A stretch of DNA of 35,169 nucleotides from Nitrospira sp. (GTDB lineage Bacteria; Nitrospirota; Nitrospiria; Nitrospirales; Nitrospiraceae), in the NCBI GenBank assembly GCA_019636815.1, contig JAHBWT010000042.1, positions 1 through 35,169 on the forward strand, written 5' to 3'. Numbering within the stretch: position 1 is the stretch's first letter; each line of letters opens with the position of its first letter. The position numbers and the translations under genes are program-made. The notes under the pieces were generated by a model, which worked only from the letters and a program-made list of their open reading frames with translations, was not told the DNA's origin and made no database searches. Below are positions 5,200-24,906 of this stretch, one piece after another.

Positions 5200-5277
5200 A
5201 TGCCCCTCTCGTCCCCCTCGCTCACTCAGGGCGATGAGTCCTGTTGTCAATTTTCTAGAAACGGTCAAGGGAAGTTC

Positions 5278-6474
5278 ATGGGGTTGGGCGAAGGTTTCTA
5301 TCGGATCAAGCGACTGCCTCCGTATGTCTTCGCCCAGGTTCAATCCCTGAAGCTTGAAGCGCGGCAACGCGGTGAGGACATTATCGATTTCGGGATGGGT
5401 AATCCCGATCAGCCGACTCCTCCCCATATCGTGGAGAAGATGGTCGAGGCGGCCCGCAAGGGGAAGAACCATCGGTATTCGGCGTCGCGTGGAATTACGA
5501 AACTGCGCCATGCGATATGCAGCTGGTACAAGCGAAACTATGATGTCGACTTGGATCCAGAAACGGAAGCTATCGTCACCATTGGGTCAAAAGAAGGTCT
5601 CGCCCATCTGGCATTGGCCATGATTGGTCCAGGTGATGTCGTCCTGACTCCGACGCCCACGTATCCGATTCATATGTACAGTTTCATCATCGCCGGTGGC
5701 GAAGTTCGGGGAATCGAACTTCGTCAGGACAGCGACTTTTTCGAAGACTTGACCAGTGTGTATCGGCAGACCTTTCCCAGGCCGAAAATTCTCGTCATCA
5801 ATTTTCCGCACAATCCGACCACGGCCGTGGTCGATCTGGAATTTTTCAAGAAGATCGTGACTTTTGCCAAAGAGCATAATGTCATCGTCATCCACGACCT
5901 CGCCTATGCCGATCTGGTGTTCGACGGCTATAAGGCTCCCAGTTTTCTTCAGGTCCCTGGAGCGAAAGACTGCGGGGTGGAGTTTTACACCCTCTCCAAG
6001 GCCTACAATATGCCGGGCTGGCGCGTAGGCTTCTGTGTGGGCAATCGGGAGGTGGTCGGTGCCCTGGCGAAGATCAAAAGCTATCTGGATTATGGGATTT
6101 TTCAGCCGCTTCAAATCGCGAGTGTGATCGCGCTGAACGGCCCTCAGGATTGCGTCAAGGAGACGGTTCAGCGGTATCAAAAACGCCGCGATGTGCTGGT
6201 GGGCGGGTTGAATCGGATCGGCTGGCAGGTTGCGAAGCCGCTGGCCACAATGTTTGTCTGGGCGCGCATTCCCTTGCCGTACCGCCATATGGGGTCATTG
6301 GAGTTTTCAAAGCTTCTGCTCAAGAAGGCAAAGGTTGCAGTGTCGCCGGGGATCGGATTCGGCGAGGGCGGCGATGACTATGTGCGATTTGGTCTTGTGG
6401 AAAACGAGCATCGGACCAGGCAAGCCGTCAGGGGAATCCGTAAAGCCCTCAAGCTCGATGGGGGTGAAGAGTGA
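5278..6474 (+). CDS. alaC: AlaC-type PLP-dependent aminotransferase (glutamate-pyruvate aminotransferase family)
   Basis: This 398-residue fold-type I aminotransferase closely matches the AlaC family: [10 protein letters not shown] at the N-terminus, [18 protein letters not shown], the start of the large domain [32 protein letters not shown] and the PLP-lysine motif [15 protein letters not shown] (lysine about residue 241). AlaC transfers the amino group of glutamate to pyruvate; related enzymes accept other oxo-acids, so the true substrate here is not certain. The ATG at 5278 follows AAGGGAAG and matches the family N-terminus; the frame extends upstream to 5200 without family-like sequence. 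It is the first gene of the threonine operon and its stop overlaps the hom GTG start by four bases, which ties it to aspartate-family metabolism. Confidence 0.9.
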
Positions 6475-7784
6475 AGTCGTGCATCGGCGTCGGAATCATC
6501 GGGTTCGGCACAGTCGGGACGGGTGTCGCGAAGATTCTCCTGAACAGTGCGGCCCTCATCACCCGTCGCGTCGGGATGTCGATCGAACTGGTTTGCGTGG
6601 CGGACATGGACATTGTCAGGGATCGCGGCGTCGCACTGGCACCCGGGGTGCTCACCACCGATGTCAAGCAGGTGCTGACCGATCCGAACATCGATATCGT
6701 GATTGAGCTCATCGGGGGATACGATACGGCCAAGCGGGTCATCCTGGAGGCGATTGCCGCGGGGAAACATGTGGTCACCGCCAACAAGGCGCTGCTCGCC
6801 CTTCATGGAGAGGAAATTTTTCAAGCCGCCACGCGCAAGGGTGTGGAACTGGGGTTTGAGGCCAGCGTGGGCGGGGGCATTCCCGTTATTCGGGCATTGA
6901 CGGAAGGGCTGGCCGGCAATAGGATCGAGTCCATCTACGGGATCATCAACGGCACGTCCAACTATATTTTGTCCCGAATGACCCATGAAGGACACGGCTT
7001 CCAAGAGGTGCTCCAGGACGCCCAGCGAGCCGGCTATGCCGAGGCCGACCCGACTTTTGATGTCGCCGGGATCGATTCGGCCCACAAACTGGCGATTCTG
7101 GTCTGTCTTGCCTACGGCATGCCGGTCAACTTCAAGGATGTCTACACCGAAGGCATCGCAAACATCACACCGATCGACATCGCCTATGCGAAACAGTTCG
7201 GGTATACCATCAAGCTGCTCGGCATCGCGAAACTCATGGATGGAGAAATCGAGGCTCGGGTTCATCCCACCATGCTTCCGTCCACCTCGCCGATCGCCCG
7301 AGTGGAGGACGTGTACAACGCCATTCAGCTTGTGGGTGATGCCGTCGGTGATGTCGTCCTCTATGGGCGAGGAGCCGGATCCATGCCGACCGGGAGTGCG
7401 GTGGTGAGTGACGTGATTGCGATCGCGCGGAACGTGATCGCGGGCGCCGTCGGTCGAGTGCCGGTCGCATCATTCCAACAGGACCAGCGAAGACCGCTGC
7501 GGTTGCGGCCGATGGAGGAAATCAGCTCGCTCTATTATCTCCGTTTCACGGTCGTGGACCGACCTGGCGTGTTGGCGCAGATCGCCGGTGAATTGGGGCG
7601 CTGCGGCATCAGCATTTCTTCGATGGTGCAACAGGGACGGTGTGAAGGACAAACAGTGCCGGTCGTCATCAAGACACACAGCGCGAAAGAACGCGATGTG
7701 CAAACGGCCCTTCGTGAAATCAACCGAAAGCCGTTCGTCTCTGAGCCGACGATGCTCATTCGAGTCGAAGGCAAGGATGAGTGA
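6471..7784 (+). CDS. hom: Homoserine dehydrogenase with C-terminal ACT domain
   Basis: This enzyme reduces aspartate semialdehyde to homoserine with NAD(P)H, the branch step towards threonine and methionine. The 437-residue product has the Rossmann motif GFGTVGTG (residues 11-18), [10 protein letters not shown] with the catalytic-region lysine near residue 106, the substrate-binding signature [10 protein letters not shown] and [11 protein letters not shown], and [16 protein letters not shown]-terminal ACT domain begins near residue 352 ([19 protein letters not shown]), suggesting feedback control by an amino acid, probably threonine. It starts with GTG, and GTGA overlaps the alaC stop. Confidence 0.96.
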
Positions 7785-7787
7785 TCG

Positions 7788-8846
7788 ATGAATCGCTGGC
7801 GTGGAGTCATTGAGGAATACCGCAAATTCCTCCCTGTGACCGAGAAGACCCCGGTCATCAGTCTGGGAGAGGGCAACACGCCGCTGATTCGCGCCACCAG
7901 ATTGGCGAAGGCGATCGCCCCAGGAATCGAACTCTATCTGAAGTTTGAAGGCGTCAACCCCACCGGGTCATTCAAAGACCGTGGCATGACGTTGGCCATC
8001 TCGAAGGCGGTGGAAGGCGGCGCGCGGGCCGTCATGTGCGCCTCGACGGGGAACACCTCGGCCTCGGCCGCCGCCTATGGAGCTCGTGCCGGGTTGTCCG
8101 TCTACGTCCTGATTCCAGCCGGAAAGATCGCGATGGGCAAACTATCCCAGGCGATGATGCATCAGGCGACCGTCATTCAGATCGAAGGTAACTTCGATCA
8201 AGCTCTGGCGCTCGTGAAAGACTTTTCAACGTCGCTCCACATTGAACTCGTCAACTCAGTGAACCCGTTCAGGATTGAAGGGCAGAAGACCGCGGCCTTT
8301 GAAATCTGTGACCAACTGGGCGAAGCTCCGGCGCTTCATGTCTTACCGGTCGGGAACGCCGGCAACATTACCGCCTATTGGAAGGGGTACAAGGAATACC
8401 GTGCGGCGAACCAGATTCGGCGAGTCCCCCGCATGATGGGGTTTCAAGCGTCAGGAGCAGCTCCAATCGTGCTGGGGAGGGTCGTTGAACACCCGCAAAC
8501 CGTCGCCACCGCCATCCGAATCGGCAATCCTGCCAGCTGGTCATCGGCCCTCGCAGCGGTAGACGAGTCCACCGGCCTGATCGATATGGTGACGGACGAC
8601 GAGATTCTTCAGGCCTACACCACGGTGGCGGCCACCGAAGGGGTCTTTTGTGAGCCGGCATCGGCCGCGTCCGTGGCCGGGGTGGCGAAATTGCACAGAA
8701 ACAAGACCCTGCACGAAGGAGAGACGGTCGTCTGCACCCTGACGGGACATGGATTGAAGGATGCCGATACGGCGATCGGCGTGTCGAAACCACCACAGAC
8801 CGTCAAAGCAACGCGCGAGGACGTTGCCCGTTTTTTGAAAGTCTGA
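7788..8846 (+). CDS. thrC: Threonine synthase
   Basis: ThrC converts O-phosphohomoserine to threonine with PLP. The 352-residue product is the short fold-type II form: GEGNTPLI near the start, the PLP-lysine motif TGSFKDRGM (lysine about residue 63), [18 protein letters not shown], the phosphate-binding glycine loop LPVGNAGNI and PASAASVAG towards the C-terminus. It begins three bases after the hom stop. Because ThrC needs phosphorylated homoserine, a homoserine kinase must exist; no ThrB of the GHMP type lies in the cluster, which puts attention on the following gene. Confidence 0.96.
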
Positions 8847-8862: not shown

Positions 8863-10071
8863 ATGAAATATGTGATCGTGCATGCTGGCGGAATCGCCCA
8901 TCACCCACAGGAAGAACTGGGAGGTCGGACCCCGCTCCAAGCGGCCGCAACTCCCCATCTCGATCGTCTGGCACAGCGCGGAGAACTCGGTCAACTGATG
9001 ATTCCCGCTGATGGAGTCCGTCCAGGAGGCGGGCTGATCGGCACGGCGATTCTCGGCTATGACCTGAAGAAGTTTTATCCCGGCCCTGGGCCGCTTGAAG
9101 CAGCCAGCTTAGGGGTGTCCGCGACGGAACAGGATGTGGTCTATCGCTGCACGATGGTGACCTTGGCGCCGGAAGGGGGGAAGGGCGGCGAAATCAAAAA
9201 ATTGGGTCCCCACGTCATCCTGGAAGATGCGACGGCCGGGTTGATCGAGACTGAGGACGCTCGCGAGTTGCTCGAGTCGATCAATGAACAGCTCGGTTCC
9301 GAAACCATCCAATTCTATCCCGGCGCCGGTCACCGCCATTTAATGGTCTGGGTGAATGGAAAGCCGAGGGCCATCTGCACCGATCCGCAGACGATACTCG
9401 GCCGATCGATCGCCGACGCCTTACCCGCCGGAGATGGGTCGGACATTCTCCGGAAGCTGATGGATGCCGCCTACTTGATCTTGCGTGATCACCCGATCAA
9501 CGATGAACGGGTTGCGGCCGGAAAGAAGCCGGCCAATTGTCTCTGGCTCTGGGGCGAGGGGCGAGCCGTCATGTGGCCGAGTCTGGTGGAACAGCACGAC
9601 ATCGCGGGAGCGGTCGTCGCCACCAACGATGTCCATCGTGGTGTCGGAATCAGCGCGGGACTCGACGCGGTGGATCCTGAACGATTGGAAGGCGGGGATC
9701 TCCGGACCAGGGCGACCGTGGCCCTGGAGGAATTCGCCAAGAAGGATTTTGTCTATGTCCATGCCAAGTTGACGGACGAGGTCATCCATGGCAACGACAT
9801 CAAGGCGAAGGTCCGGGGAATCGAAGAGTTCGATCGTAGCCTGGTCGGTCCCTTGGTCGAGGGACTGGACAAGCAGGGCCCCTATCGCTTTCTTGTGATC
9901 TGCGACCACAGCGCAGGCATTCAGGGTCCGGCTTTCTATGCGTTCGGTGAAGGAGGCGGAAAAGATGTCGGGACCGCCGGTCGCCGCTTCACCGAGGCCG
10001 ATGCGAGTGCCTCCAGCACCCCCGCCCGTGACGCCACCAAATTCGCGAACAAGTTCTTCTCGAAAAGCTGA
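8863..10071 (+). CDS. ApgM-like alkaline-phosphatase-superfamily protein, divergent; candidate homoserine-kinase-type or pseudoenzyme
   Basis: The 402-residue product aligns by eye with cofactor-independent phosphoglycerate mutases of the archaeal type (ApgM), a family that includes members proposed as homoserine kinases when next to threonine genes. Conserved scaffold includes [61 protein letters not shown] and [14 protein letters not shown]. However, several catalytic positions are changed. The usual GDGMAD near the N-terminus reads AGGIAH (residues 8-13), the usual PGSD containing the nucleophilic serine reads PGGG, and the C-terminal DH motif is kept (VICDHS) but the following TH motif is gone. 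The DE..H motif (TDEVIH) remains. Position between thrC and lysC argues for a role in threonine synthesis; plain mutase chemistry looks unlikely. Family placement is confident, function is not. Confidence 0.75.
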
Positions 10072-10076
10072 CGATT

Positions 10077-11300
10077 GTGGCGCTGATCGTCCAAAAATAC
10101 GGCGGCACTTCCGTGGGCACGATCGAGCGCATCCATCGCGTCGCCGACCGTGTGGCCCGAACACAAGGAGAAGGGCATCACGTCGTCGTCGTCCTCTCGG
10201 CGATGAGCGGCGAGACGGATCGCCTGCTCAAGCTCGCCCATGAGGTAACGGGGACTCCGGATGAACGTGAATTGGATATGTTGCTTTCGACGGGAGAGCG
10301 CGTCACCATCGCCCTGCTGGCGATGGAGTTGCGTGGGCGGGGGCTCAACGCGCGGTCTTTTACAGGACGTCAGGTCGGCATCGTGACCGACAGCGCCCAT
10401 ACCAACGCGCGGATCGCGCGCGTGACGGCCGATCGCATCAAAGAGGCTTTGAAGGAGGGCGTCATCCCCGTCGTGGCTGGATTCCAAGGGATTAATGAAC
10501 GCTCCGATGTCACCACCCTCGGTCGTGGAGGATCCGATCTCTCCGCCGTTGCGCTGGCGGCGGCTTTGAAGGCGAATCGGTGCGTCATCTTCACCGATGT
10601 CGATGGAGTCTATACCGCGGACCCCAACATCGTGCCCGCGGCCAAACGGATCGACAAGATCGCCTATGAAGAAATGCTTGAGATGGCCAGTCTTGGCGCG
10701 AAAGTGCTCCAGACCAGATCGGTGGAATTCGCCGCCAAGTTCAACGTGCCGGTCGAAGTGAATTCCAGCTTCACAGAAGGGAAGGGAACGCTCGTGACGA
10801 AGGAAGACAAGGATATGGAGGCCGTGGCGGTGGCCGGCGTGACCGGAGACCGCAATCAAGCCAAGATCACGATCGTCGGCGTGCCGGACAAGCCGGGCAT
10901 TGCGGGCAGGATTTTTGGCTCCGTGGCGGAGGCCAACATCAATGTCGACATGATCATTCAGAACATCGGTCAAGCGGCTCTGACCGACCTCTCCTTCACC
11001 GTCCCTCGCGCCGATCTAAAGAGAGCCGAACCTCTCATTCAGGCCGTGGCGAAGGACATCGAGGCCAAGTCCGTGTCGATCACGGAAGCGATAGCCAAAG
11101 TGTCCCTCATCGGCGTCGGCATGCGCTCGCATTCCGGCGTGGCGGCCAAGATGTTCGAGGTGCTCTCCCGTGAGGGGATCAATATCATGATGATCAGCAC
11201 GTCCGAGATCAAAATCTCCTGCGTGATCGAGGAGAAGTATCTCGAATTGGCGATGCGATCGCTCCATACAGCGTTCGATCTCGACCAAACGCAGGCCTGA
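10077..11300 (+). CDS. lysC: Aspartate kinase with two ACT domains
   Basis: LysC phosphorylates aspartate, the entry step to lysine, threonine and methionine. The 407-residue product is the class II monofunctional form: KYGGTS (residues 7-12), [53 protein letters not shown] and then paired ACT domains from about residue 265 ([29 protein letters not shown] and [22 protein letters not shown], abbreviated). These suggest feedback inhibition by lysine and/or threonine. The start is a GTG six bases after the apgM-like stop with a weak ribosome-binding site. It is the last gene of the operon and converges with the RelE relic. Confidence 0.96.
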
Positions 11301-11319: not shown

Positions 11320-11640
11320 TCACCAATTGGTACAAGCGGGCTGAAGGCGTTCGTTCTTGTCAACACCCAGCCTCTGGTTGAGCTGCCTAGGACAGGACGT
11401 TCCTTTCATTAACTGCAGCATCAGAACCTCCGAGCTAGCGATAGACTTCACGGCGATGCGATAGTCGCCCTGTCGAATACGATAGCGTTCGGATTCACCA
11501 GAGAGTTTTTCGCATCCCGAGGGCCGCGGTTGTTGGGCTAAATCTCGGATGCGAATGATGATCCGCTTGAAGTCACCCGAAGTAAGCGCCTTAAGTTCCT
11601 TCTCGGCTGATCGTTTGATGATGCTATAAGGTTCCGTCAC
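11320..11640 (-). pseudogene. relE: RelE/ParE-family toxin, internally deleted and frameshifted
   Basis: The first 62 residues (from a GTG at 11640) read as a normal RelE-type mRNA interferase: IIKRSAEKELKAL, RIIIRIRDLAQQPRP, KLSGESERYRIRQGDYRI. The family then continues with about 17 residues of core strand and ends in HRREVYR. Here that ending is present but in another frame: directly after GACTATCG, bases 11458-11435 on the minus strand read His-Arg-Arg-Glu-Val-Tyr-Arg-stop. So the strand between GDYR and HRREVYR has been deleted with a shift of frame, and the open frame runs past the old stop for 40 unrelated residues to 11320. The toxin core and its C-terminal catalytic residues are lost, so it is probably inactive. 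The 5' end overlaps the antitoxin gene by 17 bases. Confidence 0.85.
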
Positions 11641-11914: not shown

Positions 11915-12113
11915 TTCGTTCGCGCATAGTTTCCTTTCGGTATCCCCGTGTTCAGGTCGATAGTACTCCCTCTGCGCCTCTTCAATCTCCAGACTCAGCA
12001 CTTTTCAGCGAAGTGCGTGATTTCCTGAGGGGAAAGAGGTATCCTTCCGGGCGATTGAGCTACGGAATCCTAACCCGTTGGGTTCGGTCCTGATCGGCAA
12101 AAGGCGCTTGGGC

Positions 12114-14948
12114 ATGCCAACCTCAGAAGACAAAGCCCGCGAGCAGATCGATAAGGCCTTGGCGAAAGCTGGGTGGCAGGTTCAGGACTATCAGCAGGCC
12201 AACCTGCATGCAGGACGTGGCATCGTGCTCAGAAACTTCCCGCTCGTCAGCGGGCACGGCTTCGCGGACTATCTCCTTTACGTAGATGGGAAGGCTGCCG
12301 GAGTCGTCGAAGCCAAGAGAGAAGGGTTTCCGTTAGTCGGTGTTGAAGTTCAAGCCGTCAAATACAGTCAAGGGTTGCCGCAGGACCTCCCAGCACACAC
12401 ACGCCCGCTCCCATTTCTCTATCAAAGCACCGGCATCGAGACGCGCTTCACCGACGGCCTCGATCCGGAGCCCCGTAGCAGGCAAACCTTCGGGTTTCAT
12501 AGACCCGACACGCTGGCCGAATGGATCGACCGAGCCGACTTGAAATCTACACGAAGCGTCCGCGACGATGTCGCGGCGCTGACGCGTGAACCCTACCGCA
12601 CCCATTCATCTCTTCGCGGCCGTCTGAGGCAGTTGTCCGACGCTCATCCTCTCATCACCGCCGGTCTCTGGCCCGCGCAAGTCACCGCCATTACGAATCT
12701 CGAACAGTCGCTGGCTCAAGATCGTCCGCGCGCCTTGATCCAAATGGCCACCGGCAGCGGCAAGACCTTCACGGCCATCAACTTCATCTACCGGCTGATC
12801 AAGTTCGCCGGAGCCAAACGGGTCCTGTTTCTGGTGGATCGCGGCAACCTGGGCGACCAGACGTTGAAGGAATTTCAGCAGTACGTCTCGCCCTACAACA
12901 ACTTCAAGTTCACCGAAGAGTTCATCGTCCAGCGTCTCACGAGCAATCAGCTCGATACGACCGCGCGGGTCTGCATCGGGACGATCCAGCGGCTCTATTC
13001 CATGCTGAAAGGTCGCGATCTGGCCGAAGAGGACGAGGAAACCTCCGTCTCCGGGCTCGAAAAACTCTTCAAGAAACCGGACCCCATCGAGTACAACCCG
13101 GGGATCCCGATCGAAACCTTCGATGTCATCGTCACCGACGAATGCCACCGGTCCATCTACAACCTGTGGGCGCAGGTGCTCGAATACTTTGACGCCCATC
13201 TCATCGGCCTCACCGCCACGCCCAACAAGCAGACCTTCGGCTTCTTCAACCAGAATCTTGTCATGGAATACAACCACGAGCAGGCCGTAGCCGACGGGGT
13301 CAACGTCAACTACGACGTCTACCGCATCCGTACCGCCATCACCCAGGCCGGCTCCAAGGTCGATTCCGGCTTCTATCTCGAAAAACGAGACCGCGAGACC
13401 CGCGCTACGCGCTGGGAGGAGCTCGACGACGACTTTGCCTACGATCCTGACCAACTCGACCGCGATGTGGTTGCTGTAGACCAGATCCGCACCATCATCA
13501 AGACGTTCAAAGAGAAGCTCTTCACCGAAATCTTTCACGGCCGAACCTGGGTACCAAAGACCCTCATCTTTGCCAAGGACGACTCCCATGCGGAGGACAT
13601 TGTGAAGATCGTGCGCGAGGAATTCGGGAAGGGGAATGACTTTGCACAAAAGATCACCTATCGCACCACCGGGGCCGACCCAAAGGAACTCATCAAGGCC
13701 TTTCGCGTCTCGCCATTGCCCCGCATTGCCGTCACCGTGGACATGATCGCCACCGGTACGGATATCAAGCCGGTCGAAATAGTCCTTTTCATGCGCGCCG
13801 TCAAATCCCGCACTTTCTTCGAGCAGATGAAGGGCCGGGGCGTCCGCGTCATCAAGGCCGATGACCTCAAGAGCGTCACGCCCGACGCCCAGAGTAAAGA
13901 TCATTTCGTCATCGTCGATGCCGTTGGGGTCTGCGAGCAGGACAAGACCGATGCGCGGCCGATGGAAAAGAAACCCAGCGTTGCCTTCGACAAACTGCTA
14001 CAAGCCGTTGCTCTGGGCAGCACAGACGAGGATGTGCTCACCAGCATCGCCGGCCGGCTCGCCCGCATGGAACACCGGATCACGAAGGAAGATGATCAGG
14101 TGATCGTGAAAGCCAGCGGAGGCCTCTCGCTCAAAGATCTGAGCCGCCGGCTCGTCGAAGCGGTCAATCCCGATCAGCAGGAAGAGCGAGCCAGACAACA
14201 GTTCGGGACGGACAAGCCAACTGAGCAGCAGCTCGCGAAAGCGGCAGCCGTACTTCTTCAAGAAGCGGCCAAGCCGTTCCAGGACCCAAAGCTCCGCGAA
14301 CTCCTCATCGACATCAAGAAGAAGAACGAACTCACCATCGACCATGTGAGTCAAGACCAAGTCATCGAAGCAGGCTTCAGCGCCGATGCCTTGGCCCGCG
14401 CCCGCACCATCGTGCAGTCCTTCGAGCAGTTCATCGCACAGCACAAGGACGAGATCACTGCGCTGCAGATTCTCTACAGCAAGCCCTACAAGCAACGGCT
14501 CACGTTCGAAAGCGTCAAGGAATTGGCCGATGCCATCGAAAAGCCACCCTACCTCTGGAACGAATCGCAACTCTGGCAGGCCTACGCGGCGCTGGAGAAG
14601 TCGAAGGTCAAAGGCGCCAGTGGCAAGCGCATCCTGACAGACCTGGTTTCTCTGGTTCGCTTTGCCATCCACCAGGACAACGAATTGGTCCCTTTTCCTG
14701 AGCGAGTGAATGCCAACTTCAAGTCTTGGCTGGGGGAACAAGAAAGAACAGGGAGAAGATTCACCGATGAACAGCGCCACTGGCTTGAAATGATTCGCGA
14801 TCATGTCGCGGCGAATCTGAGCATTGAGAAGGACGACTTCGAGCTGGCACCGTTCAATCGGGAAGGTGGGTTAGGGAAGGTTTATCAGGTCTTTGGGAGT
14901 GAACTGAATCAAATCATCGAAGAGCTGAACGGGGCATTGGCGGCGTGA
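12114..14948 (+). CDS. hsdR: Type I restriction enzyme R subunit HsdR
   Basis: HsdR is the ATP-driven translocase and nuclease of a type I restriction-modification complex. The 944-residue product has the N-terminal PD-(D/E)xK nuclease pattern (FADYLLYVDG then VVEAKREG near residues 62-69), Walker A ATGSGKT near residue 212, LFLVDRGNLGDQT, the DECH box (about residue 341), LTATP, and motif VI with KGRGVRV (about residue 572), followed by an EcoEI-type C-terminal helical domain. Length fits the family. I chose the ATG at 12114 (AAAAGG upstream); the frame is open upstream to a TTG at 12078 with no family sequence. No lesion is seen. It leads the locus, whereas hsdM normally comes first, and its stop overlaps hsdS. 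Confidence 0.94.
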   Translation: MPTSEDKAREQIDKALAKAGWQVQDYQQANLHAGRGIVLRNFPLVSGHGFADYLLYVDGKAAGVVEAKREGFPLVGVEVQAVKYSQGLPQDLPAHTRPLPFLYQSTGIETRFTDGLDPEPRSRQTFGFHRPDTLAEWIDRADLKSTRSVRDDVAALTREPYRTHSSLRGRLRQLSDAHPLITAGLWPAQVTAITNLEQSLAQDRPRALIQMATGSGKTFTAINFIYRLIKFAGAKRVLFLVDRGNLGDQTLKEFQQYVSPYNNFKFTEEFIVQRLTSNQLDTTARVCIGTIQRLYSMLKGRDLAEEDEETSVSGLEKLFKKPDPIEYNPGIPIETFDVIVTDECHRSIYNLWAQVLEYFDAHLIGLTATPNKQTFGFFNQNLVMEYNHEQAVADGVNVNYDVYRIRTAITQAGSKVDSGFYLEKRDRETRATRWEELDDDFAYDPDQLDRDVVAVDQIRTIIKTFKEKLFTEIFHGRTWVPKTLIFAKDDSHAEDIVKIVREEFGKGNDFAQKITYRTTGADPKELIKAFRVSPLPRIAVTVDMIATGTDIKPVEIVLFMRAVKSRTFFEQMKGRGVRVIKADDLKSVTPDAQSKDHFVIVDAVGVCEQDKTDARPMEKKPSVAFDKLLQAVALGSTDEDVLTSIAGRLARMEHRITKEDDQVIVKASGGLSLKDLSRRLVEAVNPDQQEERARQQFGTDKPTEQQLAKAAAVLLQEAAKPFQDPKLRELLIDIKKKNELTIDHVSQDQVIEAGFSADALARARTIVQSFEQFIAQHKDEITALQILYSKPYKQRLTFESVKELADAIEKPPYLWNESQLWQAYAALEKSKVKGASGKRILTDLVSLVRFAIHQDNELVPFPERVNANFKSWLGEQERTGRRFTDEQRHWLEMIRDHVAANLSIEKDDFELAPFNREGGLGKVYQVFGSELNQIIEELNGALAA

Positions 14949-16312
14949 AGAATTCGGCAGAAGATATCTTTGAGCCAGAAGCGCCGGTTGTGCCGTCAGG
15001 CTGGAATGTACTGCCATTTGAGCAGGCTGCCGATGTAGTTTCCGACAAGGGCAGGCGGATTAAACAGGGCGCATATTTGCTTGCAGGGAAGATTCCGGTC
15101 ATCGATCAAGGGCAAGATACGACCGGAGGATATACCGACGATGAGGCCATGACTTTTGATGGTGAGTTGCCTGTCATCCTGTTTGGAGACCACACGCGTT
15201 CGCTCAAATACGTTGATAAGCGATTTGCTGTGGGAGCCGAAGGTGTAAAGATCTTAAGACCCCGTGAGGGCTACTTTCCCAAGTTCTTTTACTATCTACT
15301 CCGCTCATTGCATATTCCGAGTCGCGGCTATAGTCGCCATTTTCAATTCTTGAAGAAGTTTTATTTACCACTTGCACCAGAGGACCAGCAGAAGCGCATC
15401 GTCGCAGAAATCGAAAAGCAATTCTCCCGCCTCGACGAAGCCGTCGCCTCACTCAAGCGCACCAAGGTCAATCTCAAACGCTACAAAGCTACTGTCCTCA
15501 AAGCCGCCGTCGAAGGGAAATTGACTGAAGACTGGCGCAAGCAGCATCCGGATGTTGAGCCAGCAAGTAAACTTCTCGAACGTATCTTGGCCGAACGGCG
15601 TGCGAAGGGGAGGGACAAAAAGAGACTAGATGAACCTGTGGTGCCGGCAATGGCTGGCTTGCCCGAATTACAACCTGGTTGGGCATACGCATCCGTCGAA
15701 CAACTCGGCATCATTGGTGAGCAAGCTGTTCTTACTGGACCATTTGGAACGAACCTTGGGAGAGAAGATTTTAGAGAATCAGGTGTCCCTGTACTTACCA
15801 TTTCATGCCTCAAAGAAACCGGCATAGACCTCGCTAAGGCAGAGTATGTTTCCAAAGAGAAAGCTAATGAGTTGGATAGATATCGATTGAGGAAGGGTGA
15901 TCTGCTCTTTTCACGAATGGCGGCTGTTGGTCGCGCTGGGATCGTCGGAGACAGATTGCGAGGCACACTGTTTAACTACCACATCATGCGCCTACGCCTA
16001 GAACCTGCCGTGCTGATGGCCAAATACTATTTAGCATATGTCAGAGGTTCGTCCCAAGTAGAGAACTATATTCGAGAGGTAAACCACGGTGCTACCCGTG
16101 ACGGAATTAATACAGAGCAGCTACTAAATATGCCAGTCGCGCTCCCCCCGTTTGCAGAGCAACAAGGGATCGTTGCCGAAGTCGAGCGCCGCCTATCGGT
16201 CATCGACGAACTCGAAGCCACCGTCGAGGTCAACCTCACCCGCGCCGACCGCCTGCGGCAGGCTATACTCCAACAGGCTTTTAGTGGAAACCTAGTTAAT
16301 ACTGGAGCTTAG
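14945..16312 (+). CDS. hsdS: Type I restriction-modification specificity subunit HsdS
   Basis: HsdS chooses the bipartite target sequence for both methylation and cleavage. The 455-residue product has the usual two-fold design: target-recognition domain 1 (about residues 18-140), the first conserved helical region (PEDQQKRIVAEIEKQFSRLD followed by LKAAVEGKLTEDW), target-recognition domain 2 (about 240-395) and the second conserved region (FAEQQGIVAEVERRLSVIDEL then LRQAILQQAFSGNLV). Both halves appear complete. It starts with a GTG whose GTGA overlaps the hsdR stop. The sequence specificity cannot be read from the protein by eye. Confidence 0.94.
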   Translation: MKNSAEDIFEPEAPVVPSGWNVLPFEQAADVVSDKGRRIKQGAYLLAGKIPVIDQGQDTTGGYTDDEAMTFDGELPVILFGDHTRSLKYVDKRFAVGAEGVKILRPREGYFPKFFYYLLRSLHIPSRGYSRHFQFLKKFYLPLAPEDQQKRIVAEIEKQFSRLDEAVASLKRTKVNLKRYKATVLKAAVEGKLTEDWRKQHPDVEPASKLLERILAERRAKGRDKKRLDEPVVPAMAGLPELQPGWAYASVEQLGIIGEQAVLTGPFGTNLGREDFRESGVPVLTISCLKETGIDLAKAEYVSKEKANELDRYRLRKGDLLFSRMAAVGRAGIVGDRLRGTLFNYHIMRLRLEPAVLMAKYYLAYVRGSSQVENYIREVNHGATRDGINTEQLLNMPVALPPFAEQQGIVAEVERRLSVIDELEATVEVNLTRADRLRQAILQQAFSGNLVNTGA

Positions 16313-16313
16313 T

Positions 16314-18026
16314 ATGCAGCTGGTCTCCTTTTCTGTGACTAACTACCGCAGCATTACTACCGCGTACAAATTGCCATTTCGACAATCCACGGTTCTTATC
16401 GGCCCAAACAATGAAGGGAAATCCAATATCCTCAAGGCCCTAGTAACTTCGCTTGGCTTTTTGGGAGCCCTGGACCGCTTTCGATTGTTCAGAGGCCGAG
16501 TTCGGATGCACTCCCGAGATATAGGGGGATATAACTGGAGCAAAGATTTTCCAGTGTCTCTACAGGATAAATTGCCCGATGGTGAGTCCATTTTCGGGTT
16601 GGAATTCAAGCTCTCAGATCGGGAGGTGGGCGAATTCGAAGAAGAAGTCGAGAGCTACCTCAACGGGAATCTCCCCATCCAACTGTCTTTCGGGAAAACG
16701 GACCCCGGATTTCGGGTTCTAAAGCGAGGCCCCGGCGGTCCCGCGTTATCAAGGAAGGCACAGTCAATCGCTAAGTTCATAGCGAAGCGGATCAACCTGA
16801 CATACATACCCGCTATTAGGACATCAGAAGAGGCTCACAACATCGTTGGGAACATTGTTGATAGGCAACTTGCTGCTGTTGAGGAAGAAAAGGCGTACAA
16901 GGATGCTCTTGCCGAGGTAGCAAAGATTCAAGCTCCCGTTCTAAATGCAATTTCTAGCAAGATAAAAGAAACCCTCAAGGAATTTCTTCCAAATGTGCGA
17001 GACGTAAAAGTAACGATCTCAGAGGATGCTCGTTATCGCGCTCTACGCCGTGAGTACGAAATTGTTGTCGATGATGGAACACCGACCCCACTCGAAAGAA
17101 AAGGCGACGGCGTCCAAAGCTTGGCGGCACTTAGCTTAATGCGTCAATCATTTGAGAGTGGCGCATCTGGCAGGCAATTGATATTGGCCATAGAGGAACC
17201 TGAGTCTCATCTCCATCCTAAAGCCATTCACCAGCTTAAAGCGGTCATTGCTGATATCGCTAAGCAGCATCAGGTTATCATGACAACACACTGTCCGCTT
17301 TTTGTGGATCGAACAAGTATCAAGTCGAACATCCTAGTTCATGGTAATAAAGCCTTGCCCGCCAAGGACGTTAAGCAAATACGCGATATTCTCGGAATTC
17401 GATCTGCAGACAATTTGCAAAACGCTGAAATCATCCTCGTCGTCGAAGGCGAGGGTGACAGACGAGCTCTCATCGCGCTTCTGAAAACCTCTTCTGCAAA
17501 TCTAAACTCCGCATTTACCCAAGGTGCAATTGCAATTGAATCGCTCTTTGGTGGTAGTAACCTTAGCTATAAATTGGGGCAAATCCGAGAAATGATGTGC
17601 GTTGCCCACTGCTATATCGATCACGATAAGGCTGGAATTGACGCTCAGCAACGAGCAGAGAGGGATGGGCTCATAACCCTCGCTGATGTAAACTTTTCTG
17701 TCTGTAACGGGATGAAAGAGTCAGAGATCGAGGATATCTATGAGGAAGGTCTTTATATCAACATGCTTCAAAACAGATACGGTGTATCCCTCCTATCCCC
17801 AAGATTCAAAGGGAACGATAAGTGGTCGAACAGATTAAGAGAGACGTTTAAGCACCAGGGGAAGCCCTGGTCTGCTCAAATTGAGGCGAAGGTCAAAACA
17901 GAAATTGCAGATCTTGTGGAGACTAACCCTGGTAGTGCGTTGAACCAGCATAAGAGGTCTTCATTCGACACCTTAGTGCAAGCGTTGGAAGCAAAGTTGT
18001 CTGCCATTTCTACTAGCAAGGTATAG
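16314..18026 (+). CDS. OLD-family ATP-dependent endonuclease (AAA ATPase plus TOPRIM)
   Basis: This 570-residue protein begins with an SMC/RecF-like ATPase domain: Walker A GPNNEGKS at residues 30-37, a Walker B region ILAIEEPESHLHP near residue 292 and MTTHCPLFVDR. It is followed by a TOPRIM nuclease domain with VVEGEGDR (about residue 376) and the metal-binding D-x-D in YIDHDKAG (about 433). This is the layout of OLD-family nucleases, which include the P2 phage Old protein and the GajA subunit of Gabija. No UvrD-like GajB partner follows, so a stand-alone OLD type is more likely. It begins one base after the hsdS stop and so is probably co-transcribed with hsdR and hsdS. Its base composition is clearly more A+T-rich than hsdR, suggesting a separate origin. 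Confidence 0.88.
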   Translation: MQLVSFSVTNYRSITTAYKLPFRQSTVLIGPNNEGKSNILKALVTSLGFLGALDRFRLFRGRVRMHSRDIGGYNWSKDFPVSLQDKLPDGESIFGLEFKLSDREVGEFEEEVESYLNGNLPIQLSFGKTDPGFRVLKRGPGGPALSRKAQSIAKFIAKRINLTYIPAIRTSEEAHNIVGNIVDRQLAAVEEEKAYKDALAEVAKIQAPVLNAISSKIKETLKEFLPNVRDVKVTISEDARYRALRREYEIVVDDGTPTPLERKGDGVQSLAALSLMRQSFESGASGRQLILAIEEPESHLHPKAIHQLKAVIADIAKQHQVIMTTHCPLFVDRTSIKSNILVHGNKALPAKDVKQIRDILGIRSADNLQNAEIILVVEGEGDRRALIALLKTSSANLNSAFTQGAIAIESLFGGSNLSYKLGQIREMMCVAHCYIDHDKAGIDAQQRAERDGLITLADVNFSVCNGMKESEIEDIYEEGLYINMLQNRYGVSLLSPRFKGNDKWSNRLRETFKHQGKPWSAQIEAKVKTEIADLVETNPGSALNQHKRSSFDTLVQALEAKLSAISTSKV

Positions 18027-18047
18027 GCAGGACTATGCCCCAACTAG

Positions 18048-18132
18048 ATCGTCCAAAAGCTCTGGAACGATCTTTGCGATGACGGGATGAACTACGGTGG
18101 CTGTGTCGAGCAGTTGACGCATGTGCTGTTTC
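18048..18132 (+). pseudogene. hsdM 5'-end fragment, copy 1
   Basis: The frame beginning at 18048 reads IVQKLWNDLCDDGMNYGG then CVEQLTHVLF, which matches the N-terminus of the hsdM found at 18798 (IVHKLWNYCNVLRDDGMSYG then DYVEQLTYLLF), with three codons missing. There is a TAG just upstream (18045) and no start. After VLF the similarity ends, yet the frame stays open to a TGA at 18240 overlapping the hicB start; that tail matches nothing I recognise. It is a relic of an hsdM gene, perhaps of a diverged second copy. Confidence 0.8.
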
Positions 18133-18238
18133 GTAGCACCGTTTGGCGTTGTCAGGGTATGCTTCTGGCCGCGAAAATAGTTGCAATGAAGGGCCGGTTC
18201 CAGTACATGAAAGCCGGTACGCACAAGGGAGGTGAATC

Positions 18239-18445
18239 GTGAGACAGGTGATTATTTATCGTGGAGAGGATGGCTATTGGGTGGCCGAATGCCCAAGCCT
18301 GCCCGGTTGTCTGAGCCAGGGGAAGACCAAAGAAGAGGTGGTGACAAACATCCGTGAGGCCATTCGGGGCTACATTGCGGCATTGGAAGAAGACAAACTC
18401 ACCGTGCCTGAAGAGCGCTTCGATGCCGTGCTGATGGCCGTATGA
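18239..18445 (+). CDS. hicB: HicB-family antitoxin
   Basis: The 68-residue protein has the degenerate RNase-H-like HicB core: an N-terminal strand, then GYWVAECPSLPGCLSQGKTKEEVVTNIREAIRGYI (abbreviated to PSLPGC and EAIRGYI as key parts), ending in a short acidic helix. HicB neutralises HicA. No C-terminal HTH or ribbon-helix-helix DNA-binding domain is visible, so it is the short HicB form. A GTG start at 18239 follows AAGGGAGGTGA. Its stop overlaps the hicA start as ATGA. The pair sits between the OLD gene and hsdM. Confidence 0.92.
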   Translation: MRQVIIYRGEDGYWVAECPSLPGCLSQGKTKEEVVTNIREAIRGYIAALEEDKLTVPEERFDAVLMAV

Positions 18446-18663
18446 GCAAGTTGCCGGGTATCTCGGGGCGAGCCTGTATTAAAGCGTTGGAGCGGGCGAG
18501 CTTTGTGGTGCGGCGACAGGAAGGCAGCCATGTGATTCTTCGTCGCGCGCAACCCTTCAGCCAGCTGGTGGTGCCGGATCACAAAGAACTCGACCGCGGA
18601 ACGCTCCGCGCGATCATTCGTCAGGCTGATCTCACGGTGGAGGAGTTTCTTAGGCTGTTGTAG
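18442..18663 (+). CDS. hicA: HicA-family mRNA interferase toxin
   Basis: HicA is a small double-stranded-RNA-binding-fold toxin that cleaves mRNA. The 73-residue product reads PGISGRACIKALERASFVV then the catalytic-histidine segment GSHVILRR (His30) and VVPDHKELDRGTLRAIIRQA, all family hallmarks. It appears complete. It is translationally coupled to hicB through ATGA. In this locus it may stabilise the restriction island against loss, which is inference. Confidence 0.93.
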   Translation: MSKLPGISGRACIKALERASFVVRRQEGSHVILRRAQPFSQLVVPDHKELDRGTLRAIIRQADLTVEEFLRLL

Positions 18664-18695
18664 ATATCACGACCGCTTCCTGTACTGCTTGGGAC

Positions 18696-18709
18696 TCCTC
18701 AAATGAGGA
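18696..18709. promoter_or_regulatory. 14-base inverted repeat between hicA and hsdM
   Basis: TCCTCA-AA-TGAGGA is a perfect dyad with 6-base arms located 32 bases after hicA and 88 bases before hsdM. It could be a binding site controlling hsdM. No T-run follows, so it is not an intrinsic terminator. The role is unproven. Confidence 0.3.
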
Positions 18710-18797
18710 TTCGTTTCTATGAGGGGATTCTGCTTCATCATTTCTGGCCGCCTGGATCTTTACGATACACGCTGAAAGCATTCCGGGTCATCACTCA

Positions 18798-20300
18798 ATG
18801 AGCACTTCTGCCATCGTCCACAAACTCTGGAACTATTGCAACGTCCTCCGCGACGACGGGATGAGCTATGGCGACTACGTCGAGCAATTGACGTATTTGC
18901 TGTTCCTCAAGATGGCCGATGAGCGGACGAAGCCGCCGTATAGCCAGCCGAGTCCGATTCCGGACAGATACGGTTGGCAGAGCCTCCTGAAGAAAGACGG
19001 CGATGAGCTGTTCACGCACTACCTGCACAGCCTTGAAAGGCTCGGCAAGTAGAAGGGCCTGCTCGGACTGATCTTCAACAAGTCGCAGAACAAGTTCCAG
19101 GACCCCGCCAAGCTCCGCCGCCTGATCGTAGACCTGATCGACAAGGAAGATTGGTCGGCGATGAGCGCCGATGTGAAAGGCGACGCCTACGAGGGCTTGC
19201 TCCAAAAGAATGCCGAGGACGTGAAGGGCGGGGCAGGCCAGTACTTCACGCCTCGTCCGCTGATCCAAGCGATGGTGGACTGCGTCGCGCCGAAGCCTGG
19301 TGAAACGATCTGCGACCCGGCCTGCGGAACCGGCGGCTTCCTCCTCGCCGCGCACGATTACGTGGTAAAGCACAATCCTAATTTGACCAAGGCCCAGAAG
19401 AAAGCGCTGAAGGAACAGACGCTCCGTGGTTGCGAGTTGGTGCATGCGGTCGCGCGGCTCTGTGCGATGAACCTGCTGCTGCACGGCATCGGCAGCCAGG
19501 ATTACGAGCCGATCGTCGTGGCCGACTCATTGGCCGGCGATCACGGTGATCGCTATGACGTGGTGTTGACCAATCCGCCGTTTGGCAAGAAGAGCAGCTA
19601 CACGGTGGTGGGACAGAATGGTGAGGCTTCAAGGGAACGAGAGACCTACGAGCGCGACGATTTCTGGGCGATCACGTCCAATAAACAGCTGAACTTTCTT
19701 CAGCACGTGAAGACGCTCTTGAAGGTCAACGGCCGCGCTACGATCGTCGTGCCGGACAATGTGCTCTTCGAAGGTGGCGCGGGAGAAACCGTCCGCCGCA
19801 AACTACTCCATGACTGCGATGTGCATACGTTACCCCGACTTCCGACCGGCCTCTTCTATGCTCAAGGTGTGAAAGCGAACGTCCTTTTCTTCGACAAGAA
19901 ACCGGCGAGCGAAACGTCCTGGACAAAGAAACTCTGGATCTACGACCTCCGCACCAACCAACACTTTACGCTCAAGACCAACCCACTCAAGCGCGAAGAC
20001 CTCGACGAGTTCGTCAAGTGCTACCACCCGGCGAACCGCCACGAACGTCGGCCCACCTGGTCCGAGAAGAAGCCAGACGGCCGCTGGCGGGCCTATGGCT
20101 ACAACGAACTGATTGCTCGCGACAAAGCCAGCCTCGACATCTTCTGGCTCAAAGACGAATCCCTCGAAGCCTCCAACAATCTTCCTGATCCCGACGTGAT
20201 CGCGCAAGAAATCGTAGACGACCTCGAAGCAGCCCTCGAACAGTTCCGGTTGATTGCGAACGACCTCAGCGGCCCATCTTCAGAAGTGGGACCGCAGTGA
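18798..20300 (+). pseudogene. hsdM: Type I restriction-modification methyltransferase HsdM, interrupted by an in-frame amber codon
   Basis: HsdM methylates adenine in the target and is also required by HsdR for cleavage. The frame from the ATG at 18798 encodes a family-like N-terminal helical domain (LWNYCNVLRDDGMSYGDYVEQLTYLLFLKMADE, shown here only by LWNYCN and LLFLKMADE), reaches TAG at 19050-19052 (codon 85), and continues in the same frame as KGLLGLIF, LRRLIVDLIDKEDW, the SAM-binding DPACGTGGF (about residue 173) and the catalytic NPPF (about 259) to the stop at 20300. Family members have Gln at the TAG position (LGKQKGLLGLIF), so one C-to-T change of CAG explains it. No bases are lost, and a full-length product would have 500 residues. 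TAG is used as a normal stop by hsdS, the OLD gene and cimA here, so it is a true nonsense mutation or a sequencing error. Confidence 0.88.
19161..20300 (+). CDS. HsdM catalytic-domain fragment, possible internal re-initiation product
   Basis: After the amber codon in hsdM, the next good start in the same frame is the ATG at 19161, with AAGGAAGA about 11 bases upstream. Translation from it gives 379 residues holding the whole N6-adenine methyltransferase domain (QYFTPRPL, DPACGTGGF, NPPFGKK) but not the N-terminal helical domain. Whether this is made, or can assemble with HsdS, cannot be told. The upstream piece 18798-19052 would be an 84-residue N-terminal fragment. Confidence 0.5.
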   Translation: MSADVKGDAYEGLLQKNAEDVKGGAGQYFTPRPLIQAMVDCVAPKPGETICDPACGTGGFLLAAHDYVVKHNPNLTKAQKKALKEQTLRGCELVHAVARLCAMNLLLHGIGSQDYEPIVVADSLAGDHGDRYDVVLTNPPFGKKSSYTVVGQNGEASRERETYERDDFWAITSNKQLNFLQHVKTLLKVNGRATIVVPDNVLFEGGAGETVRRKLLHDCDVHTLPRLPTGLFYAQGVKANVLFFDKKPASETSWTKKLWIYDLRTNQHFTLKTNPLKREDLDEFVKCYHPANRHERRPTWSEKKPDGRWRAYGYNELIARDKASLDIFWLKDESLEASNNLPDPDVIAQEIVDDLEAALEQFRLIANDLSGPSSEVGPQ

Positions 20301-20992
20301 TGCCCAAGCCCACTATCCTTGTATGCCAATACCTGGAACGGATTTCTCGAAAAGCCTTGGAGACGTACCAGGACATCCTCCGAGTTTATGTGCGAGGGCG
20401 GCATGGCCTGTATGCGCTGTATCAAGATGATCGCCTGTACTATGTTGGCTTGGCGACCGACTTGCGTGACCGCCTGAACTCACATCTGCGCGATCATCAC
20501 GGAAACTCATGGAATCGGTTTAGTGTGTATCTCACCATTGGAGATTCTCACATCCATGAGCTTGAAGGCCTTGTGTTGCGCATCGTTCAGCCTAATGGCA
20601 ACAAATCGAAGGGACATTTTGGAAAGGCCGAGAATCTCGTAAAGAGATTTAAGGGAGATATTCACCGACGACAACTGATTGAAAGACAAGAGTTGCTGGG
20701 ATTGCCAACGTTCACTTCGAAAAGCACTCGCAAGCGAATTAAGGATAAGAACCTGCCGGTCTTGGCGGCATTTGTTACGAAGAGACTCAAGCTACGCGCG
20801 AAATTCAAGGGACGTTATGTGAAGGCTCACGTCCTAAAGAATGGCACGGTCGTATACGATGGAAAACGCTTTAATTCTCCATCCCTGGCTGCAGCGGCAG
20901 CTTGCGAGCGGCCAACCTGTAATGGATGGACCTTCTGGCGATTCGAACGCGGCCCTCACGAATGGGTCTTGCTGAATGAACTGCGGAGATAG
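20300..20992 (+). CDS. GIY-YIG nuclease-fold protein with C-terminal RAMA/DUF4357-like module
   Basis: The 230-residue protein has a GIY-YIG core: GLY at residues 36-38, YYVGLATDLRDRLNSHL with YVG at 48-50 and a conserved Arg near 56, and HELEGL with the candidate metal-binding Glu at 87 or 89. The C-terminal part (about 170-230) reads VKAHVLKNGTVVYDG, FNSPSLAAAAA and NGWTFWRFERG, the pattern of small DNA-reading modules (RAMA or DUF4357-like) often attached to restriction and methyltransferase proteins. A GTG at 20297 is an alternative start. Either start overlaps the hsdM stop, so it should be translationally coupled to hsdM. It may be an accessory nuclease of the restriction locus; no similar standard HsdRMS component is known to me. 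Confidence 0.75.
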   Translation: MPKPTILVCQYLERISRKALETYQDILRVYVRGRHGLYALYQDDRLYYVGLATDLRDRLNSHLRDHHGNSWNRFSVYLTIGDSHIHELEGLVLRIVQPNGNKSKGHFGKAENLVKRFKGDIHRRQLIERQELLGLPTFTSKSTRKRIKDKNLPVLAAFVTKRLKLRAKFKGRYVKAHVLKNGTVVYDGKRFNSPSLAAAAACERPTCNGWTFWRFERGPHEWVLLNELRR

Positions 20993-22304: not shown

Positions 22305-23945
22305 ATGGCTCGAAAACCTCCTCAATCTCGCGCCTCACGTGAACACCCGCCCGTGCATCCACGACGGCCGTCGGCGGAGCAAGCCGCGGGGTTGGAGATC
22401 TACGATACGACCTTGCGAGACGGCGCCCAGGCTGAAGACGTCAGTTTCTCGGCGGACGACAAGGTCCTGATTGCACAGAAGTTGGACGACTTGGGCGTCC
22501 ATTTTATCGAAGGTGGGTGGCCGGGGGCGAACCCGAAAGATATCGAGTTCTTCCGGATGATCAAAACTATTCCGCTGAAACATGCCGAGGTCATCGCTTT
22601 CGGATCAACCAGGAAAGCCAGTAATACTGCTGGGAAAGACCCCAATCTCCGGGGGTTGCTCGCTGCTGAAACTAAAACGATCACGCTCTTCGGGAAAACC
22701 TGGTCGCTGCATGTCACCGATGCTCTGGGAATCTCGTTGACCAAGAACCTGGAGTTAATCGCCGATTCCATCGCCTACTTGCACGACAAAGGGCGTCGGG
22801 TGTTCTACGATGCGGAGCATTTCTTCGACGGCTACAAGACCAATCCCGAATATGCACTCAGCACGATCAGAAAAGCTGCGGAGGCCGGAGCTGAACGAGT
22901 GATCCTGTGCGACACCAACGGCGGGACGATGCCGTGGGAAATTCGGGAGATCTGTCAGGTGGTCCAACGCGAGTGTCGGGTTCCCCTTGGAATTCATGCG
23001 CACAACGACTGTGAAATGGCAGTGGCAAACTCGCTGGTGGCGATTGACACCGGCATTCTCCAGGTACAGGGGACGATCAATGGGATCGGGGAACGATGCG
23101 GAAACGCCAACCTCTGTTCGATCATTCCCAATTTAGAATTGAAGATGAAACGTCGTGTCTTGAGCGATCGATTGAGCCATCTGAAAGATGTTTCCGGCTA
23201 CGTGACGGAAATCGCAAATCTGATGCCGAACAAGCATCAACCGTATGTCGGTGATGCCGCGTTTGCCCACAAGGGAGGAGTTCATATTCATGCGGTGCTG
23301 AAGAATTCAGCAACCTATGAACATATCGATCCCGCCCGAGTTGGTAATCGGCAGCGGATGCTGATCTCCGACTACGGAGGGCGAAGCGGTCTTCTCGACA
23401 AGATTGAAGCGTATGGAATCAAACTGACCAAGGACCATACGAAGGTCGATGAGCTGATTCACGCCTTGAAGGATCGAGAAAGCCAGGGCTATCAGTTCGA
23501 AGGGGCCGAAGGCTCGTTTGAGCTCCTGATGCGCAAAGTCATGGGGAGTCATAAGCCGTCGTTCCAGCTCTTGGGGTTTCGCGTAATTGCTGAGAAAAAA
23601 CAAGATGATGGGACACCTCTCTCAGAAGCCACCGTGATGGTCAAGGTCGGCGAGGCGGTTGAACATACGGCGGCTGTCGGCGCAGGGCCGGTGAATGCGC
23701 TGGACCACGCGTTGCGCAAGGCTCTGGAAAAGTTCTATCCACAGCTGCAAGAGGTCAAACTGCTCGACTATAAGGTGCGCGTCCTCGCGGCCAATAAGGG
23801 GACTGAGTCCAGGGTGCGGGTCTTGATCGAATCCGGGGATCACAAGGATAAATGGGGCACAGTTGGAGTGTCGGAAAACATCATTGAAGCGACATGGCAA
23901 GCGCTGGCGGATAGTATCGAATACAAACTTCTCGCTGCGGATTAG
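22305..23945 (+). CDS. cimA: (R)-citramalate synthase CimA
   Basis: CimA condenses pyruvate and acetyl-CoA to citramalate, giving a threonine-independent route to 2-oxobutyrate and isoleucine. The 546-residue product has the catalytic-barrel start EIYDTTLRDGAQAEDVSFS (from residue 31), FIEGGWPGANPKD, CDTNGGTMP, the metal-binding HAHNDCEMAVANS (about 231) and GTINGIGERCGNANL, then a C-terminal LeuA-type allosteric dimer domain (from about 390) for feedback control, probably by isoleucine. Length fits the CimA rather than LeuA subfamily. The N-terminal 29 residues are rich in Pro and Arg and lack a ribosome-binding site, so a downstream start (for example TTG at 22392) is possible. lysC and cimA are neighbours in some related genomes, which suggests that the island split them. 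Confidence 0.93.
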   Translation: MARKPPQSRASREHPPVHPRRPSAEQAAGLEIYDTTLRDGAQAEDVSFSADDKVLIAQKLDDLGVHFIEGGWPGANPKDIEFFRMIKTIPLKHAEVIAFGSTRKASNTAGKDPNLRGLLAAETKTITLFGKTWSLHVTDALGISLTKNLELIADSIAYLHDKGRRVFYDAEHFFDGYKTNPEYALSTIRKAAEAGAERVILCDTNGGTMPWEIREICQVVQRECRVPLGIHAHNDCEMAVANSLVAIDTGILQVQGTINGIGERCGNANLCSIIPNLELKMKRRVLSDRLSHLKDVSGYVTEIANLMPNKHQPYVGDAAFAHKGGVHIHAVLKNSATYEHIDPARVGNRQRMLISDYGGRSGLLDKIEAYGIKLTKDHTKVDELIHALKDRESQGYQFEGAEGSFELLMRKVMGSHKPSFQLLGFRVIAEKKQDDGTPLSEATVMVKVGEAVEHTAAVGAGPVNALDHALRKALEKFYPQLQEVKLLDYKVRVLAANKGTESRVRVLIESGDHKDKWGTVGVSENIIEATWQALADSIEYKLLAAD

Positions 23946-24829: not shown

Positions 24830-24906
24830 CGGGGCGTAGCGCAGCCCGGTAGCGCACTCGCTTGGGGTGCGAGTGGTCGTGGGTTCAAATCCCGCCGCCC
24901 CGACCA
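24830..24906 (+). tRNA. tRNA-Pro (anticodon GGG)
   Basis: The 77-base cloverleaf folds fully: acceptor CGGGGCG with CGCCCCG, D-stem GCGC/GCGC, anticodon stem CTCGC/GCGAG around loop TTGGGGT (anticodon GGG), T-stem GTGGG/CCCGC with loop TTCAAAT, discriminator A and an encoded CCA. It reads CCC and CCU codons. Confidence 0.96.

Follow-up and report, generated by a model that had tools for sequence, protein, structure and literature searches.

In many bacteria the homoserine kinase step is a recognised gap, and the proposal that ThrB2 performs it is still uncertain. The threonine operon in a 35,169-nt stretch of DNA from Nitrospira sp. (contig JAHBWT010000042.1 of assembly GCA_019636815.1; below, the window) raises this question in a particular form: the place between thrC and lysC holds a gene for a protein resembling ThrB2 and the phosphoglycerate mutase ApgM, with an incomplete catalytic set. 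What does this protein do, and which enzyme makes O-phosphohomoserine in its host? The first-pass annotation, made from the sequence alone, had assigned the ORF an ApgM/proposed-homoserine-kinase scaffold and left three options, namely a new kind of homoserine kinase, a regulatory pseudoenzyme or a different enzyme. We found no paper on this protein in Nitrospira.

An ApgM-like protein in the threonine operon

ORF coordinates and profile matches confirm the position between thrC and lysC (Table 1), the gene order in the window being aminotransferase-hom-thrC-ORF-lysC. As read with a simple ORF caller and BLAST labels, the order aminotransferase-hom-thrC-ThrB2-lysC-cimA is common to most of the loci read in the class and to several beyond it. 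The lysine motif and the NSxNPxR motif of ThrC, the latter of which binds the phosphate of O-phosphohomoserine in threonine synthases, are kept in all lineages read. As these active-site motifs are unchanged, the substrate is presumably still O-phosphohomoserine, and a switch of ThrC to another substrate was rejected on the same grounds. A phosphoglycerate mutase adjoining aspartate kinase has been described in several bacteria, the biochemical reason not being given (PMC6327494).

Table 1. Features of the threonine operon and of the ThrB2/ApgM-like protein in the window
Feature	Position	Strand	Evidence or remark
Class I/II aminotransferase, upstream of hom	5200..6474	+	Position same in relatives
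hom, homoserine dehydrogenase with ACT domain	6471..7784	+	Profile matches
thrC, threonine synthase	7788..8846	+	SFKDRG lysine motif and NSVNPFR motif intact
ThrB2/ApgM-like protein, incomplete catalytic set, 402 aa	8863..10071	+	ORF, profile matches, alignment, predicted fold
His7, new, two residues before lost Asp9	8881..8883	+	99% conserved in Nitrospiraceae
Gly9, replacing metal-ligand Asp (D12 in the crystal structure that PMC9765024 uses)	8887..8889	+	Alignment
PF10143 domain, strongly constrained	8971..9501	+	dN/dS 0.064 for residues 61-245
Gly56 in place of nucleophile/ligand Ser	9028..9030	+	Alignment
Asp305...His309 (TDEVIH), ligands kept	9775..9789	+	Alignment
Asp348-His349, ligands kept here	9904..9909	+	Family variable (DH, EH, DQ, others)
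Deletion taking out the last metal-ligand His (TH motif)	9910..9930	+	Approximate place
lysC, monofunctional aspartate kinase	10077..11300	+	Profile matches
CimA-like HMGL/LeuA-dimer protein	22305..23945	+	Adjoins lysC in relatives; here an 11-kb insert between

The insert between lysC and the CimA-like gene carries type I restriction-modification genes (R, S and M subunits) and an OLD/GajA-like ATPase (window positions 12078-20992); in relatives such as the one at locus L177 the CimA-type gene directly follows lysC. The match of the M subunit to its best model starts only around profile position 119, and its N-terminus may be missing. A small ORF on the minus strand (11320-11640) resembles, by eye, a RelE/ParE-type toxin, with no PADLOC match, and a tRNA gene (24830-24903) is the sole Rfam match above gathering score in the window.

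The protein carries PF10143 (143.1 bits) and PF01676 (48.3 bits), the domain composition of ApgM, and at 323 bits lies just above the TIGR00306 cut-off of 320; for TIGR02535, the ThrB2 model, it reaches 302.7 bits, under the curated cut-off of 446.3. Its AlphaFold2 model (mean pLDDT 88.9) matches best, over its full length, the archaeal ApgM structure 2zkt (Z 36.6, rmsd 3.3 over 354 residues). The model, silent on activity, thus shows a predicted fold that retains the ApgM architecture, and the scaffold named in the first-pass annotation is indeed a full-length ApgM/ThrB2 (TIGR02535-type) one. The archaeal phosphoglycerate mutases (PH0037, 2zkt; 3kd8, 3idd) share this fold from end to end, whereas the Nitrospira protein has an incomplete metal site and a threonine-operon context. 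In the tree the Nitrospirales sequences form one clade (support 99/96) that groups with ThrB2, separate from second ApgM-like paralogues. Tree and operon comparison together support common descent with TIGR02535/ThrB2 in a threonine-operon setting. With BT2402 of Bacteroides thetaiotaomicron, a TIGR02535 member, the protein shares full-length homology and operon partners, but BT2402 has its zinc sites fully conserved (PMC9765024), whereas the Nitrospira protein keeps four of seven ligands and stays below the family cut-off.

Ligand loss and purifying selection

Seven metal/nucleophile ligand columns were read in an alignment of 146 distinct homologues. All 42 intact relatives show D,S,D,H,D,H,H; these comprise 37 sequences from other classes of Nitrospirota, four from Clostridia and one sister-family sequence (family f5), the 37 having been picked from high-scoring TIGR02535 matches and therefore being intact by choice rather than a random sample. 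The window protein reads G,G,D,H,D,H,- and keeps four of the seven, falling short both of the complete ThrB2 catalytic set and of the nucleophile Ser and metal ligands that an active ApgM mutase has. The motif changes given in the first-pass annotation were read correctly: GDGMAD has become AGGIAH, PGSD has become PGGG, TDEVIH and DHS are retained, and the C-terminal TH lies within a deletion. The Ser loss holds for the window protein but not throughout the family, since Ser56 is still found in 62% of the Nitrospiraceae sequences.

The 85 Nitrospiraceae sequences retain at most five of the seven ligands each, and all of them lack the last His, while Asp305 and Asp348 are each found in more than 90%. 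His309 and His349 vary within the genus. Sequences of f2, which in the tree branches off first within the order, keep five or six ligands, the second DH being NH in all of them, and those of f3 keep one to three; among copies from sister families, f10 has four and f6 none. As read from the alignment, the catalytic set has genuinely been lost across the order and not just in one genome, being incomplete in every Nitrospirales sequence examined. The alignment gave no sign that neighbouring residues supply the missing ligands, aside from His7 as a candidate substitute. This residue and a patch at 134-150 are among the new, nearly invariant residues of the Nitrospira protein. At R75, a position conserved both in ThrB2 and among the second paralogues, the Nitrospira sequences have Pro. 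At positions of PF10143 that are conserved in intact ThrB2, the substitutions N97T, S148G, Y149H, P166D and H168Q (L139 numbering) are fixed, some of them giving residues frequent among the second ApgM-like paralogues.

The full-length genus copies listed are all ORFs without internal stops, and the median pairwise dN/dS within the genus is 0.089 for the whole gene, compared with 0.066 for hom, 0.052 for thrC and 0.046 for lysC. By region, dN/dS is 0.064 for residues 61-245 (PF10143), 0.160 for residues 1-60 and 0.127 for residues 246-402. The PF10143 domain is thus under strong purifying selection, at a level like that of hom. It also retains 35 of 49 residues conserved in the intact family, against 23 of 62 in the metal domain (Fisher p = 0.0005). 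For the seven ligands, loss was not significantly more frequent than for the other conserved positions (Fisher p = 0.26), which limits the claim to a metal domain relaxed as a whole, with the ligands not singled out.

Distribution of ThrB2 and ThrB, and the search for another homoserine kinase

GHMP ThrB (TIGR00191), a different protein family, serves the same pathway step in sister families, whether ThrB2 there is broken, missing or, as in f5, intact. Each of the 13 genomes tested from other orders of the class has it above cut-off, two of them (f6 and f10) beside a broken ThrB2. Of the six genomes tested from f13, f18 and f21, four have it, and the nine sampled genomes of the phylum with intact ThrB2 give no match above cut-off. 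An f5 genome has both ThrB and an intact ThrB2. Within the phylum outside the Nitrospirales, intact ThrB2 and GHMP ThrB thus largely replace each other. This complementary pattern supports ThrB2 as a homoserine kinase and shows how ThrB2 could be lost once ThrB had been gained. As a natural test across a whole phylum it bears on the ThrB2 proposal itself, since for BT2402 the evidence is mixed: growth depends on the gene when threonine is not supplied, but an E. coli thrB mutant was not rescued by it (PMC7311316), so that even its homoserine kinase activity is unproven.

The Nitrospirales depart from this pattern. None of the 188 genomes of the order has a GHMP ThrB above cut-off, with one near miss; the only GHMP kinase found in the host genome itself (95% complete) is IspE, which also accounts for its weak TIGR00191 match. 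The earlier statement that no GHMP ThrB is present is thereby upheld, and the search for a normal thrB elsewhere, which it had called for, brought up none above cut-off in the 188 genomes. Several assemblies are incomplete, which makes a single absence weak evidence, but the pattern holds in single-contig genomes, G039 and G052 among them; profile searches can miss diverged enzymes. The near miss is a ThrB-like protein in the Nitrospiraceae genome G277 (locus L244; 167.7 bits against a cut-off of 168.25), located by eye beside another type of threonine synthase, and may reflect transfer or contamination.

The ThrB2-like gene is cleanly absent between thrC and lysC in f4 and in genera g3 and g8 of f3, all within the order, and in the sister families f7, f8, f9 and f12, the last with a larger thrC-lysC spacing. 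The emptied slot holds no replacement kinase; thrC and lysC adjoin each other there. One f3 genome carries a ThrB2-like pseudogene with several stops between intact thrC and lysC (L059, G058:C10:270000-284000, approximately 5830-6990). In f21, the same slot holds by eye a very diverged ApgM-like protein of 406 aa starting with 'LDGLCE' (L238, G077:C1:1130000-1144000, 7559-8779), and the same genome has GHMP ThrB.

Other kinase families were searched as well. A shikimate-kinase-like homoserine kinase, DvMF_0971 of Desulfovibrio vulgaris, sets a precedent for an alternative enzyme (PMC5764234), but most genomes of the order among the 59 searched with PF01202 have a single match and no obvious second copy; the host genome and a few others have a further match, mostly weak or partial, and no such match is widespread across the order. 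ThrB_alt (TIGR00938) gave no match above cut-off in the same number of genomes, and the weak match that was checked fits AmgK models best, under their cut-offs. Second-type GHMP matches in relatives, where checked, fit a heptose-7-phosphate kinase model best, likewise under its cut-off. The synteny of ThrB in the sister families offered no shared neighbourhood as a lead.

A probable pseudoenzyme or a possible rebuilt enzyme

We consider it probable that the Nitrospira protein is a ThrB2-derived pseudoenzyme, serving as a ligand-binding or regulatory subunit of the threonine branch, and that the homoserine kinase of the order is another protein. The two-metal, Ser-dependent phosphoryl transfer of ThrB2 would have been lost, and the protein would have been kept, in part of the order, as a ligand-binding or scaffold subunit for a metabolite of the branch (homoserine, O-phosphohomoserine or threonine); retention of PF10143 suggests such binding. 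It might also act on its neighbours ThrC, LysC or Hom, a regulatory role that is conjecture. O-phosphohomoserine would then be made by a kinase common to the order, the simplest account of hom and thrC staying in Nitrospirales while both ThrB2 and ThrB are gone or broken. Among the three options left by the first-pass annotation, the pseudoenzyme fits best, because the metal site drifts while PF10143 is constrained, because sister genera without the gene keep hom-thrC-lysC, and because broken copies coexist with GHMP ThrB in two sister families; the new kinase is weakened. Against the pseudoenzyme stands the place of the gene, which occupies the kinase's slot in the operon; an independent gain of another kinase is, moreover, conceivable in sister genera without the gene.

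The prevalence of Asp305 and Asp348, with the invariant His7 beside the lost Asp9, makes a remodelled site possible, and a still active homoserine kinase using a single metal or none, built on His7 and Asp305/His309/Asp348/His349, would also explain the unchanged slot, the constraint on PF10143 and the failure to find another homoserine kinase in the families searched. We regard it as unlikely, given that the nucleophile Ser is Gly in many sequences, that two of the proposed ligands, H309 and H349, vary within the genus, that R75 is Pro, that f3 sequences are without most of the remaining ligands and that sister genera manage without the gene. As the search yielded no alternative homoserine kinase, it is not certain that this gene has given up the kinase role. 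An enzyme of the same fold acting on a new substrate would accord with the fixed PF10143 substitutions, some of them toward second-paralogue residues; such a change of function seems improbable, as it faces the same loss of catalytic metal ligands and the genomes examined have the gene alongside hom-thrC-lysC. The pseudogene and the losses in several sister lineages might suggest a functionless, decaying relic, which the low dN/dS over the genus and the uninterrupted full-length copies make very hard to accept. The name attached to TIGR00306, a phosphoglycerate mutase of central metabolism, is scarcely credible: the score barely exceeds the cut-off and the fold matches 2zkt, but the catalytic ligands are gone, the context is a threonine operon and the tree places the protein with ThrB2 instead of the second ApgM-like paralogues.

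The preferred explanation, a pseudoenzyme beside another kinase, leads to a wider proposal that we put forward tentatively: Nitrospirales may possess a homoserine kinase outside the families searched, together with a regulatory pseudoenzyme, derived from the old kinase, that through binding its former substrate continues to control the threonine branch, or else, in a variant, the protein may itself be a homoserine kinase with a rebuilt site. The phylum-wide distribution favours ThrB2 as a real homoserine kinase, and one order, including the nitrite-oxidising genus Nitrospira, has neither ThrB2 nor ThrB in recognisable working form. Two testable questions follow, the source of O-phosphohomoserine in Nitrospirales and the reason why an apparently dead relative is under strong selection in the operon.

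A second threonine-synthase-like gene (418 aa) occurs at locus L219 (G000:C56, 5125-10364), with genes that by eye are ThiS/MoaD-like, NIL-domain, ThiF-like, JAMM-like and CysK/CysM-like; no kinase was seen by eye beside this thrC paralogue. The cluster resembles a sulfur-carrier pathway, and its threonine-synthase-like protein may also use O-phosphohomoserine.
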